Shown: positions 21,453 to 25,625, counted from the stretch's first letter. The stretch: 36,693 nucleotides of DNA from an uncultured bacterium (GCA_949293265.1 CASFCK010000016.1:1-36693), one strand, 5' to 3'. Translations and numbers: made by a program. The notes: a model not told the origin generated them from the sequence alone.

Positions 21453-21479
21453 TTTGCACTCTTCTACCCGATGTGCGAA
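21453..21479 (-). promoter_or_regulatory. Second, degenerate CIRCE operator
   Basis: Read on the plus strand, TTTGCACTC-N9-ATGTGCGAA matches the CIRCE consensus TTAGCACTC-N9-GAGTGCTAA at 14 of 18 positions with the exact 9-base spacer. It overlaps the predicted transcription start (near 21476) and lies 14 bases before the hrcA ATG. Confidence 0.65.
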
Positions 21480-21482
21480 CTT

Positions 21483-21511
21483 ATTATATACTTTTGTCTT
21501 GGCACTGTCAA
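21483..21511 (-). promoter_or_regulatory. Consensus sigma-A promoter of the hrcA operon
   Basis: A perfect TTGACA (21506-21511) is separated by 17 bases from a perfect TATAAT (21483-21488) on the minus strand. The -35 box lies within the upstream CIRCE element, so HrcA binding would block RNA polymerase. Confidence 0.93.
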
Positions 21512-21525
21512 TACATTAGTGCCAA
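21499..21525 (-). promoter_or_regulatory. CIRCE operator of the hrcA operon
   Basis: TTGGCACTG-N9-TAGTGCCAA differs from the CIRCE consensus by a compensating A-to-G/T-to-C pair that keeps the symmetry, and at the innermost positions. The symmetrical core is TTGGCACT/AGTGCCAA. It overlaps the -35 box. Confidence 0.9.
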
Positions 21526-21540
21526 AAATATAAAATAAAA

Positions 21541-21561
21541 TACCGAGTTTTAAGCTCGGCA
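21541..21561 (-). terminator. Terminator of the Clp-type operon
   Basis: GCCGAG and CTCGG arms (loop about 7 bases) lie 18 bases after the stop of the 385-aa gene and are followed by TATTTTATTTT on the minus strand. The downstream sequence then runs into the CIRCE/promoter of hrcA. Confidence 0.75.
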
Positions 21562-21578
21562 TTAGTTTAATATTTAGA

Positions 21579-22736
21579 TTATAGTTCAATATATAGATAA
21601 TTTTTTAAATTGTTATACTTTAAATCATAATTGTTTAGTATTTCATTAGTGTAATCATATTTTTTCAATTTATTGGTTAAATAATCTAATTTATCTGTGC
21701 TTATATTGGCATTAACCTTAATATAAAATGGTAGAGTATTTTCAAAAACATCAAATTTTTGTTTAAAATCTTTATTATCTACATTAAAAGTATACATGCC
21801 GATATTAATTAAATTATCACCAGTATAGTAAGGGTCATTAACTAAAATAGAACCAATTTTTATAACGGGATAATTAGCATTATTACGCAAAACAAATATT
21901 GTCTCAATATGTTCTAAACAAGCTTTAATATTTTTATATTTAAAAAATGCTTGTCTAGCTTTTCGCAGTTCGAGTTTATCTTCTATAGCAAACAAATTAG
22001 CATTAGCAAATTTAGGTATAAATAAATGATAGGTATTTCTAACATTATAAGCATATAATACAATATATGACGTATTATCATCTTTATTTAAGTATAATAA
22101 AACTCTATCTGCTAGAGGACTATTAGTTCTATTATCTATATTACCATAAACCAATTTAGAATTAGTTAAATCAAGTTTAGAATTATCAAGAGGATTATAT
22201 AGCGTAATATTACTTAAATCTTCTAAAATATAATTATTATCTTTTAAGATAAGATTGTATTGATTAATAAAGGCGAGAGGATCAAATCTATCGACTAAAA
22301 TAGCTAAAATGTCATCACTTTGTTCTTTGATTTTTTCTAAATAATTCAAAGGCGGAGTAACTGATTCTGTTTTGCCGCTTTTATAGTCATTTAAAAAATT
22401 AATTAATTCCTCTATCTTAGACGTAATAATAGGATCATTTAGTTCTTTTTCACTATATTTTGTTAATTCTTGAAATAATTTTGTCACATAAGGATTTTTA
22501 ATCTCTACTTTATTTACTTCTACATTAAGTAAATCAGACCAATTAACATTCTCTAACTTAGAAGATAAGTTGTCTGATAAATCTTTGAATTTATCAAGCA
22601 TATCTTCAGGCATCTCGCTCATAAATTTATTTAATTCATCATATATTTCGTTAGCATCGCCATTAAGTTGGGGCCTTTTAACATTTTTAGGCTTTTTATC
22701 TTCAAATAAAGAATCATCTAAATTCTTAATTGCCAT
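21579..22736 (-). CDS. Unrecognised protein in Clp-type operon, 385 aa
   Basis: I do not recognise this protein. It has no signal peptide and no membrane segment, and is rich in Asn, Asp, Lys and Leu. The N-terminal quarter (about 1-135) is acidic and helical (ANEIYDELNKFMSEMPEDML, repeated amphipathic helices), while the rest (about 140-385) alternates strands and loops, with many Tyr and Asn. There is no catalytic motif that I can name. It starts four bases after the ClpP-like stop, with GGAG inside the end of that gene, so it is the third gene of an AAA+ unfoldase/peptidase operon. A role as adaptor, regulator or substrate of that protease is inference from context only. The terminator at 21541-21561 follows. 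Confidence 0.75.
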   Translation of the reverse strand: MAIKNLDDSLFEDKKPKNVKRPQLNGDANEIYDELNKFMSEMPEDMLDKFKDLSDNLSSKLENVNWSDLLNVEVNKVEIKNPYVTKLFQELTKYSEKELNDPIITSKIEELINFLNDYKSGKTESVTPPLNYLEKIKEQSDDILAILVDRFDPLAFINQYNLILKDNNYILEDLSNITLYNPLDNSKLDLTNSKLVYGNIDNRTNSPLADRVLLYLNKDDNTSYIVLYAYNVRNTYHLFIPKFANANLFAIEDKLELRKARQAFFKYKNIKACLEHIETIFVLRNNANYPVIKIGSILVNDPYYTGDNLINIGMYTFNVDNKDFKQKFDVFENTLPFYIKVNANISTDKLDYLTNKLKKYDYTNEILNNYDLKYNNLKNYLYIEL

Positions 22737-22740
22737 ATAA

Positions 22741-23340
22741 TTACTCCTTATTTAATTCTTTAACAAATTCTTCCAAAACTTTAGTATTCTTTTTAACTGG
22801 TTTTCTTATTGCATCTATTAAGCCAAATTCTAAAGCTTCATCAGAATTCATCCAAAAATCATAAGTAGCAATCTTCATTAATTCATCTTCTGACTTACCT
22901 GTTTTAGCACTTAATATTGCAAATAAACGTTTGTTTAATTTTTCATCAAACTCAATTGAATTCTTTAAAACTCTAAATTTTCCTTCAACACCTGTAGCTA
23001 ATTCATGAATCATAAATTGCGCATTAACTGAGCCATAAGCATAGTCACATACTGAGCTAATTATCGTTGCCATTGAAGCACATAAACCAGTGTTAAAAGC
23101 AACGACTGGATTAGGAATTTCTCTTATTTTATCGACAATAGCGAAACCATCTAATACGCTACCACCACCAGAACAAATTTCTAATTTAATAACCGCATTA
23201 GGATCATCATTAGCTAAAACATCTAAAAAAGATGTTACTCTTTGAGCCATTTGTGTATTTATTTCTCCGTCAATTTTAATAATTCTTGATTGGAGTAATT
23301 GTTCTTCAATATTCCATACATTTAATTTAGTTTCTTCCAT
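22741..23340 (-). CDS. ClpP-like serine peptidase, 199 aa
   Basis: This is a divergent member of the ClpP (S14) family, the barrel-forming peptidase that degrades proteins fed by an AAA+ partner. The catalytic triad is complete: Ser89 in GLCASMA, His112 in MIHEL, and Asp161 in TYDFWMNSDEALEFGLID; the spacing is close to that of E. coli ClpP. The strand loop usually reading NSPGGS is CSGGGS, and the usual IHQP after the His is IHEL, so substrate contacts are altered. The start is the ATG at 23338-23340, nine bases after GGAGG; an ATG three codons upstream abuts that site and is too close. It overlaps the AAA+ gene by 14 bases. It could be the only ClpP or a second, dedicated one; the window cannot tell. 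Confidence 0.85.
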   Translation of the reverse strand: MEETKLNVWNIEEQLLQSRIIKIDGEINTQMAQRVTSFLDVLANDDPNAVIKLEICSGGGSVLDGFAIVDKIREIPNPVVAFNTGLCASMATIISSVCDYAYGSVNAQFMIHELATGVEGKFRVLKNSIEFDEKLNKRLFAILSAKTGKSEDELMKIATYDFWMNSDEALEFGLIDAIRKPVKKNTKVLEEFVKELNKE

Positions 23341-25561
23341 TTTTTTCATCCTCCTGTAATACTTTCTTTAAAACAGCCAATTTAACTACATGATCTAAAT
23401 TACGAGCTCCAAAATCATGAATATTAGCTTCTTCTTTGATTTTTACTAAATCGGCTTTACTAAATTTACATGTTCTACCGGATAATTTTTCATATTTTTC
23501 TTTATAACGTTTAATTAAAGCATCCGTAACTTTATCATCTAGGCGATTAAATACAATAATTTTATCGATTCTACCTAAAAATTCTGGTGAAAAATGATTG
23601 TTAATTGCATCAATTGCCGATTCATTATCACCTTTACCAAGACTCATAAAGGCAGTTCCTTTTTTATTAGTAGTACCAAATCCTAAATTGGTTGTGAAAA
23701 TAATTATCGCATTACGAAAGCTAACTCTATTCCCACCCTTATCAGCAGCGTAACCTTCATCTAGAATATTTAATAGGGCTTTAAAGACACTGCTATGTGC
23801 CTTTTCAATTTCATCAAACAATACAACACAATTAGGGTTTTGTTTAACTTTAGCTAAAAAGTCACTAGTTTGTTTAAATCCAACATAACCAGGATCACTT
23901 CCAAATAAGTAATTAACTGCCGTTTCTTGTTGTAGTTGTGAACCTTCAACGACGACTAAATTTTTGTCACTACCTGTGAAGTTTTTAGCTATTAATTTAG
24001 CAGTAAAAGTTTTACCGGTCCCACTTGGCCCAGCAAATAATAAACTACACTTTGGCTTTTCCGGGTCCACAATATTATATTCAATCATATTTAAATAATT
24101 TAATACGTCTTTTAAGGTTTCTTTTTGACCTAGAACGTTTTCTTCTAATTCCTTTTTAGTATCTAAAACTTTAGTATCAGACATATTAATATTAAATTGA
24201 ACTTTTATAGAATCAATAACATCATCTATTTTAACTTCTTTATCATTTTCTTTACATACCTTAGAATAAGCAAACGCGCTTTCTAACATAGTTAAAGCTT
24301 TATCAGGGTTTGCTGAATGCATATTATATTGTAATGACAAATCATAGATTTTTTCAATTAATTCTTCATGCATAACTTTAGCAAAAAATTCTTCATTGAT
24401 CGCTAAAGTTTCTCGCATTATAGTCATCGTTTCTTCTTTAGTTGGTTCTTCAACTAAAACTTTAACAAAACGTCTAGAAATAGCTTTATCTTTTTCTAAA
24501 TATTCATTAAATTCATCATTAGTTGTAGCTCCAATAACTTGAATATCGCCTCTTGATAAATATGGTTTAATTATATTGGCCGCTGTTAAATCACCTTCAT
24601 TACCTCCAGAACGAGTTAATGTGTGCATTTCATCAATAAATAAAATCACATTATCAAGTTTAGATACAGTGTCTAAAATATTTAAAATTCTTTGTTCAAA
24701 TTGGCCTCTAAATTGGCTACCAGCCACTAAGGCATCAATATGCATTTCATAAATAACCTTATTCCTTAAATCAACAGCTAAATCCTTGCTTTGATTATTA
24801 ATCGCTAAAGCCAACATATGAACCAAAGTTGTTTTACCTGTCCCGGCTGGGCCTACTAAAACAGCTGATTTTTTTGTTCTACCTGACAAAGCGATTTGTA
24901 AAGCTAAAAATTCTTGTTGCATACCAACTGGATGCATTTCCTTATGTTTAGAAACATATTTATTAATATTAGTTAAATATTTTTTTAACTTGTCATCTTC
25001 TAAACTTTTAATTTCTCTAATGCTATATTTAGCCATACTACTAGTAAAGTCATTATATAAAGCTAAAACATCAAAGCCATTAATTGGTAGTTTATTAGCT
25101 GGAGTATTATTTAATACAGCTTGTTCATAAACATGTTGCATGATAAGATTACATTTATCTAAAACATTAAATAATTCATAATCTTTGTTTATAAACAAAC
25201 AAGTAATTAAATCAGTTACTTCCATTGTGTTTTCATCTTCGCTTGCTTTCTTTTTTAATTCATCAATAACATTTAACATATCATCCGCTAAAGTGGTATC
25301 AGTATCAAAAGGTAATTTTTCATTGTTATAATGAATAGTATTATAAGCATCATCTATTAAAACATAATTCAATTTATATTTTTCTAACAAGTTGAATAAA
25401 TCAAATTTTAAATCAGCATATTTCTTATCTTTTATAGTAGAAACAAAATTGATAATCGCTAAAAATACAATAGCTGTATCAATAGTTGTTAATCCTTTAT
25501 TTAAACTAATCATACTAGCTTCATCTAATATTTTATTAATATCGGCACTTAAAACTTTCAT
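23327..25561 (-). CDS. ClpA/ClpC-like Hsp100 AAA+ unfoldase, 744 aa
   Basis: This is a double-ring AAA+ unfoldase. An N-terminal helical domain resembling Clp_N (about 1-150, divergent) is followed by D1 with Walker A GPAGTGKTT (237-245), pore loop GSQFRGQFE (281-289) and Walker B ILFIDEMH (306-313). D2 has Walker A GPSGTGKT (511-518), pore loop GSDPGYVGF (554-562), Walker B VLFDEIEKAH (580-589) and sensor 2 GARNLD (718-723). No ClpB/ClpC middle coiled coil is visible, which makes it ClpA-like. The loop that in ClpA carries the ClpP-docking IGL is here near residues 636-642 and reads TAFMSLG, not a standard tripeptide. It overlaps the ClpP-like gene, so the two are a likely machine. Confidence 0.88.
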   Translation of the reverse strand: MKVLSADINKILDEASMISLNKGLTTIDTAIVFLAIINFVSTIKDKKYADLKFDLFNLLEKYKLNYVLIDDAYNTIHYNNEKLPFDTDTTLADDMLNVIDELKKKASEDENTMEVTDLITCLFINKDYELFNVLDKCNLIMQHVYEQAVLNNTPANKLPINGFDVLALYNDFTSSMAKYSIREIKSLEDDKLKKYLTNINKYVSKHKEMHPVGMQQEFLALQIALSGRTKKSAVLVGPAGTGKTTLVHMLALAINNQSKDLAVDLRNKVIYEMHIDALVAGSQFRGQFEQRILNILDTVSKLDNVILFIDEMHTLTRSGGNEGDLTAANIIKPYLSRGDIQVIGATTNDEFNEYLEKDKAISRRFVKVLVEEPTKEETMTIMRETLAINEEFFAKVMHEELIEKIYDLSLQYNMHSANPDKALTMLESAFAYSKVCKENDKEVKIDDVIDSIKVQFNINMSDTKVLDTKKELEENVLGQKETLKDVLNYLNMIEYNIVDPEKPKCSLLFAGPSGTGKTFTAKLIAKNFTGSDKNLVVVEGSQLQQETAVNYLFGSDPGYVGFKQTSDFLAKVKQNPNCVVLFDEIEKAHSSVFKALLNILDEGYAADKGGNRVSFRNAIIIFTTNLGFGTTNKKGTAFMSLGKGDNESAIDAINNHFSPEFLGRIDKIIVFNRLDDKVTDALIKRYKEKYEKLSGRTCKFSKADLVKIKEEANIHDFGARNLDHVVKLAVLKKVLQEDEKNGRN

Positions 25562-25585: not shown

Positions 25586-25594
25586 ATTATAGCA
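25586..25594 (-). promoter_or_regulatory. Extended -10 promoter of the Clp-type operon
   Basis: TGCTATAAT on the minus strand (TATAAT at 25586-25591) lies about 15 bases before the AGGAGG of the AAA+ gene. No strong -35 box is visible, as expected for extended -10 promoters. I see no CIRCE or CtsR-like heptad repeat nearby. Confidence 0.65.
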
Positions 25595-25625
25595 AAAAAA
25601 ATAAAGTTTGGCTATAAATACGAAA

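Follow-up and report, generated by a model that had tools for sequence, protein, structure and literature searches.

A strongly modified ClpCP-like system specific to one genus of uncultured Acholeplasmatales, with an orphan third protein

Introduction

The ClpC-ClpP protease of Bacilli joins an unfoldase with two AAA+ rings and an N-domain to a ClpP-type serine peptidase, and works with MecA or a similar adaptor. In the ClpS-ClpA-ClpP system of proteobacteria the unfoldase has no M domain and a companion gene adjoins it, clpS preceding clpA in E. coli. The IGF loop of the unfoldase and the axial loops, QXT motif and oligomerization sensor of ClpP are treated as standard parts of a Clp protease; in known ClpP the last three gate the pore and stabilise the tetradecamer (PMC9035409, PMC7112952). 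Here we analyse a three-gene operon in a 36,693-nucleotide stretch of DNA from an uncultured bacterium (GCA_949293265.1 CASFCK010000016.1:1-36693; the whole stretch is called the window), which belongs to a small genus of uncultured Acholeplasmatales. The operon encodes a ClpC/ClpA-like unfoldase, a divergent ClpP-type peptidase and a 385-residue protein, here called X, and it lies in an order where most sampled genomes have no ClpP match at all (any match was found in 24 of the 88 good genomes). No paper describing it was found in the literature searched. We show that the operon is genuine and specific to the genus, and that it encodes a strongly modified ClpCP-like system whose third component is an orphan.

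Results

The three genes are kept together in the genus

The genes for the unfoldase, the peptidase and X follow one another on the minus strand, from 25561 to 21579, as one tightly coupled operon (Table 1). An earlier note on this DNA had described such a unit, with an overlap of 14 bases between the first two genes and a gap of 4 bases before the third, and both the open reading frames and the Pfam matches agree with it. The overlap is that of the conserved MEETK start of the peptidase; an upstream ATG at 23349 gives a reading frame of 202 aa (22741-23349).

The close coupling on which the note had remarked recurs in relatives. Among the eight genomes of the genus that were examined, seven carry the unfoldase, the divergent ClpP and X in the same order, and one (G070) has none of the three; the trio is complete in 7/7 genomes having any part of it, and in none is X unlinked from the Clp pair. 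The overlap between the unfoldase and ClpP genes is 14 bases in five of the six genomes measured and 8 in the other, and 2-4 bases separate ClpP from X. Since this order and spacing are found in 7/8 genomes, with ratios of nonsynonymous to synonymous substitution rates (dN/dS) of 0.01-0.26, the arrangement is not due to chance. The gene after X varies: X adjoins hrcA in the window and in G062, and other genes stand between the two in G017, G023, G007 and G048. A trio that stays constant while the X-hrcA neighbourhood changes points to selective retention of the trio. Two genomes (L047:7726-10784 and L048:4987-8048) share an insert of three genes (241, 346 and 388 aa) that separates X from hrcA; the starts of its proteins are nearly identical, though the surrounding genes differ more.

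The trio encodes the only Clp protease of the assembly

A search of the genome with the PF00574 profile detected a single locus, this ClpP, and no second clpP. The AAA_2 matches in the genome were this unfoldase, a ClpB-like protein of 703 aa, Lon and a replication-type ATPase, with no ClpX, HslU or second ClpC among them; the ClpB-like chaperone was the only other Clp-type double-ring ATPase found. Hence, in the assembly searched, the trio encodes the only Clp protease, and not one that supplements a housekeeping Clp. The earlier note had proposed a dedicated machine, possibly distinct from the housekeeping ClpXP/ClpCP, and had named as its opposite a sole ClpP/ClpC pair of standard housekeeping profile. 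The distinction holds at key motifs, which are altered (see below), so that the profile is not a standard one; the pair is nevertheless the only one, and the idea of a second machine beside a housekeeping Clp has to be dropped.

In sister genera a canonical clpP lies beside gapA and ung, and a short ClpC that bears Clp_N is encoded at an unlinked site. Neither was found in the genome of the window. The gapA neighbourhood of clpP recurs in G004, from a different family of the order. The operon seems to have taken the place of the canonical clpP and short ClpC of the sister genera. The short ClpC itself (L100:5893-7827, L099:5334-7313, L170, L171) has an apparently dead second AAA ring, with GNN-EGLK for the Walker A motif GPxGxGKT and KNFDKA for DEIEKA in L100, and is a possible pseudo-ATPase Clp unfoldase. 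A second clpP type in sister genera (L057:9007-12858 and L059:4983-8842) adjoins a gene for a TraG/type IV secretion system coupling protein and one for an unknown protein of 530-539 aa, apparently inside a conjugative element.

A link with trans-translation was considered and rejected. The tag encoded by the transfer-messenger RNA (tmRNA), ANTHLFARNNNMSVQLAC, is identical in G070, which is without the operon, and hence has no fixed link with this machine; another route, perhaps Lon, probably handles tmRNA-tagged proteins. In the family, tmRNA tags mostly end in Cys (QLAC, YAYAC; L147-L162) and not in the usual LAA.

The peptidase keeps its catalytic centre and has altered interface motifs

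The peptidase matches Pfam CLP_protease (PF00574) with an E-value of 1.6e-34 and 119.9 bits, against a cut-off of 20.2. Canonical ClpP proteins of the class reach 200-292 bits with the same family, and the canonical equivalog TIGR00493 gives the peptidase 88 bits, below the cut-off of 308.6. The profile of the genus ClpP gives 441-449 bits with its own members and at most 103 with any other genome of the class sample. The canonical Ser-His-Asp triad is matched in the alignment by S89, H112 and D161, which do not vary within the genus. The N-terminal axial loop is absent: the segment that aligns with canonical AYDIYSR begins after only ~8 residues, and in the four genomes checked in-frame stops lie no more than ~10 codons upstream of the start. 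The QXT motif is lost, with KFR where the canonical protein has QAT, and Thr159-Tyr160 replace the Asp/Glu-Arg of the oligomerization sensor.

Within the genus ClpP is 90-95% identical, with a dN/dS of about 0.05-0.09. In the ClpP tree its stem branch measures 6.2 changes per site, and the members differ by 0.02-0.07. The long stem, the high identity and the low dN/dS together indicate that the divergence is an old burst that was followed by strong constraint. A first tree had joined the genus ClpP to long phage branches, a join that the warnings of that tree itself flag as unreliable. A position as sister to the canonical ClpP of the family was not rejected (P value of the approximately unbiased test, p-AU, 0.467), and this ClpP may stem from a vertical burst or from transfer.

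The unfoldase has two complete rings and a changed docking loop

Two ATPase modules were identified in the unfoldase (Pfam AAA_2, 4e-48; AAA, 5.8e-26). Both rings are complete, with Walker A and B motifs GPAGTGKT and LFIDE in one and GPSGTGKT and VLFDE in the other, all invariant in the genus, where the protein is 75-99% identical with a dN/dS of 0.01-0.15. Its best PDB matches are ClpC1/ClpC. In the tree its companions are M-domain-less ClpC proteins from other Bacilli families (95/88); it neither falls with phage ClpA nor is closest to ClpA. A union with the short ClpC of its own family is rejected, though weakly (p-AU 0.028), and the ClpA equivalog TIGR02639 gives 391.6 bits, below the cut-off of 993.

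The [LIV]G[FL] loop for ClpP docking, IGL in E. coli ClpA, is replaced by TAF in a gap-free column, and the surrounding KKGTAFMS is invariant in the seven genomes. The loop itself is present, unlike in the ClpB-like protein of the genome. Together with the changes in ClpP (axial loop, QXT and sensor), the change from IGL to TAF means that both partners are altered at their mutual surface.

The N-domain of the unfoldase gave no Pfam match to Clp_N at an E-value of 5. It is helical in a low-confidence model, and a pairwise profile comparison with Clp_N was collinear, with an E-value of 8e-4 but a probability of only 24%. It is the least conserved part of the protein (0.60-0.65, versus 0.86 in the AAA rings). 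These values are compatible with the N-domain and X changing together, although they come from only seven sequences.

Protein X is constrained and restricted to the genus

X was found only in this genus. It had no significant match in Pfam, NCBIfam, PHROGs, PADLOC or PDB sequences, it matched no adaptor family (MecA, ClpS, SspB or others) in Pfam or NCBIfam, and it showed no homology to Clp_N. Outside the genus, no convincing relative was detected in GTDB contigs, viral contigs, phages or plasmids, nor in 346 genomes of the class, where the next best score was 17 bits. The hypothesis of a defence system was discarded, as PADLOC returned general AAA matches only.

Within the genus X is 42-88% identical, and its dN/dS of 0.09-0.26 indicates a real, constrained gene under purifying selection, which evolves faster than the unfoldase and ClpP. 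Conservation is uneven along the protein: mean identity is 0.89 in residues 1-11, where 9/11 columns are invariant, 0.38 in 12-30, 0.33 in 121-145, 0.61 in 146-245, with 32 invariant columns, and 0.66 in 361-385. The predicted model is poor (mean predicted local distance difference test score, pLDDT, 56) and confident only around residues 146-243; the whole model gave no significant Foldseek match. The N-terminal peptide occurs in no other protein of the window or of the other stretches examined from the genus. With a terminal peptide that a variable linker joins to the folded parts, X has the layout of a tethered adaptor such as SspB, in mirror orientation; a degron would have this layout as well.

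The operon looks like a transcription unit of its own

The earlier note had assigned the operon one promoter and one terminator, and we located one extended -10 promoter-like site and one terminator-like hairpin (Table 1). The promoter-like site stands directly behind a terminator-like hairpin of the preceding gene, and a TATAAT is found at a similar position before the operon in all seven trio genomes. The neighbours of the operon are hrcA-grpE-dnaK and a gene for a metallo-beta-lactamase-fold hydrolase. hrcA has its own repeats, resembling the controlling inverted repeat of chaperone expression (CIRCE), and a perfect promoter match. With a promoter-like site after the upstream terminator-like hairpin, a hairpin after X and a separate promoter match for hrcA, the trio looks like a transcription unit apart from hrcA-grpE-dnaK. 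Control of the operon by HrcA was rejected because the CIRCE-like repeats precede hrcA and none precedes the operon. Two such inverted repeats stand in tandem before hrcA (21453-21525 in the window), as in several genomes of the genus. Foreign base composition was likewise rejected, since the G+C content at third codon positions of the three genes resembles that of their neighbours.

Table 1. Positions of the operon features in the window
Feature	Position	Strand	Remarks
Two-ring AAA+ unfoldase, ClpC/ClpA-like, 744 aa	23327..25561	-	No M domain; diverged helical N-domain, residues 1-185
Divergent ClpP-type peptidase	22741..23340	-	199 aa from the conserved MEETK start
X, 385 aa, genus-restricted; likely adaptor or accessory subunit	21579..22736	-	No family match
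N-terminal peptide of X, M[AP]IKNLDxSLF, residues 1-11	22704..22736	-	Followed by a variable linker
TAF, unfoldase residues 636-638, at the column of the ClpA IGL loop	23648..23656	-	Gap-free alignment
Catalytic Ser89 of the peptidase	23074..23076	-	Aligned with the canonical nucleophile; invariant
Promoter-like site, TAGCCA-17-TATAAT, extended -10	25586..25614	-	10/12 consensus; TG precedes TATAAT
Intrinsic terminator-like hairpin after X	21539..21563	-	Follows the third gene

Discussion

Because of their homology and conserved catalytic motifs, the unfoldase and the peptidase very probably form an ATP-dependent protease, and from the gene order it is likely that X acts on it. We infer complex formation and protein degradation, as well as every role of X, from the sequences. 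The explanation that we favour is that the trio is a genus-private ClpCP-like protease with a genus-specific adaptor; the machine is the likely part of it, and for the whole the scales stand level. An adaptor or specificity factor is likewise a role for X with about an even chance of being right. A hexameric double-ring ClpC/ClpA-like unfoldase would thread proteins into a ClpP-type chamber with rebuilt surfaces for docking and ring assembly. X, co-translated with them, would work on this machine only: its invariant N-terminal peptide, on a flexible linker, may dock onto the unfoldase, probably onto the equally fast-changing N-domain, while the conserved C-terminal alpha/beta part may hold the substrate or regulate its engagement. 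The operon would thus stand where sister genera have the canonical clpP of the gapA locus and the short ClpC.

Several points weigh against this proposal. The absences rest on draft metagenome assemblies, which are 89-99% complete. In G062 (L046:3020-3579) clpP is split by a 19-base difference, either a real loss or an assembly error, in a genome whose unfoldase is 99% identical to that of the window. A degron, a ClpP-docking motif or a localisation signal would explain the peptide of X equally well. X itself is not recognisably related to a known adaptor, and its model is poor.

Other roles for X can be considered. As a structural or activating subunit of the peptidase, X would replace the axial loops or stabilise the two ClpP rings, like an obligate chamber cofactor; the parts missing from ClpP (axial loop, QXT and sensor residues) are precisely those by which the pore is gated and the two rings are kept together, and X always directly follows clpP. 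However, an identity of 42-88% for X, against 90-95% for ClpP, fits an exposed specificity-type role better than that of an obligate stoichiometric subunit, and we consider such a subunit unlikely. Somewhat less probable still is a three-component Clp of new architecture, in which X, as an obligate third subunit, would do the pore gating or ring assembly of the lost ClpP motifs, and docking would use a chemistry other than IGF-in-cleft. A similarly low probability is given to X as a dedicated substrate, the machine mainly controlling the level of X through its N-terminal peptide as a degron. A conserved terminal peptide with a disordered-looking linker also has this form, and fixed co-expression would provide feedback; but X is conserved at its C terminus and in its middle as well, a substrate is not usually co-translated with its protease, and X has no recognisable effector domain.

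It is also doubtful, slightly more so than the substrate role, that the trio is no more than a housekeeping Clp pair of the ordinary kind, which drifted as its genus evolved fast, together with an unrelated gene trapped in the operon. This would agree with its being the only Clp protease of the genome and with the sister position to the family's canonical ClpP that was not rejected (p-AU 0.467). Yet the conservation of ClpP (90-95%, dN/dS about 0.05-0.09) speaks for an old burst and then constraint, and not for ongoing drift; X is kept with the pair in 7/7 genomes while adjacent genes are exchanged, and the ClpC of the family itself is not the sister of the unfoldase (p-AU 0.028). A phage-derived system, composed of a captured viral head-maturation protease and a jumbo-phage ClpA, was suggested by the PHROGs scores: 147 bits for the head maturation protease versus 120 for Pfam, and 488 bits for the phage ATP-dependent protease versus 392 for ClpA. 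Neither the trees nor the gene context bear this origin out, and we regard it as highly improbable. The peptidase is separated from two head-protease entries by a 100/100 branch, the unfoldase falls with Bacilli ClpC and not with phage proteins, and no capsid gene is found among the immediate neighbours; X is in no viral contig, and the other two proteins are matched only by distant viral contigs.

Whatever the role of X, the ClpP of this genus keeps its catalytic centre without the parts treated as standard, yet it is highly conserved and retained with a genus-specific partner. The operon therefore offers a natural test of what a Clp protease can do without at its interfaces, and of whether a third protein can replace such features. 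Under the adaptor reading, X is a candidate for an adaptor family found by operon logic alone.

With the ClpC-ClpP of Bacilli the trio shares two AAA+ rings with an N-domain, a ClpP-type serine peptidase and probably an adaptor, and it is the M-domain-less ClpC proteins of other Bacilli orders with which the unfoldase groups. It differs in being encoded by one operon, in an N-domain unrecognised as Clp_N, in TAF for IGF, in a ClpP without axial loop, QXT and sensor Arg, and in that X is unrelated by sequence to MecA or other adaptors. With ClpS-ClpA-ClpP it shares an M-domain-less unfoldase and an adjoining companion gene; X, however, has 385 aa, follows clpP and matches no ClpS family, and ClpA is not the closest relative of the unfoldase. 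Phage head maturation proteases and jumbo-phage ClpA are divergent members of the same superfamilies and give the trio its highest PHROGs scores, whereas the trio has no virion genes beside it and another place in both trees, and the phage systems have no third gene. The canonical clpP and short ClpC of the sister genera belong to the same family, and common descent of the ClpP types is not rejected; unlike the trio, these genes are unlinked and come without X, their ClpP has the canonical motifs, and the short ClpC has a degenerate second AAA ring.

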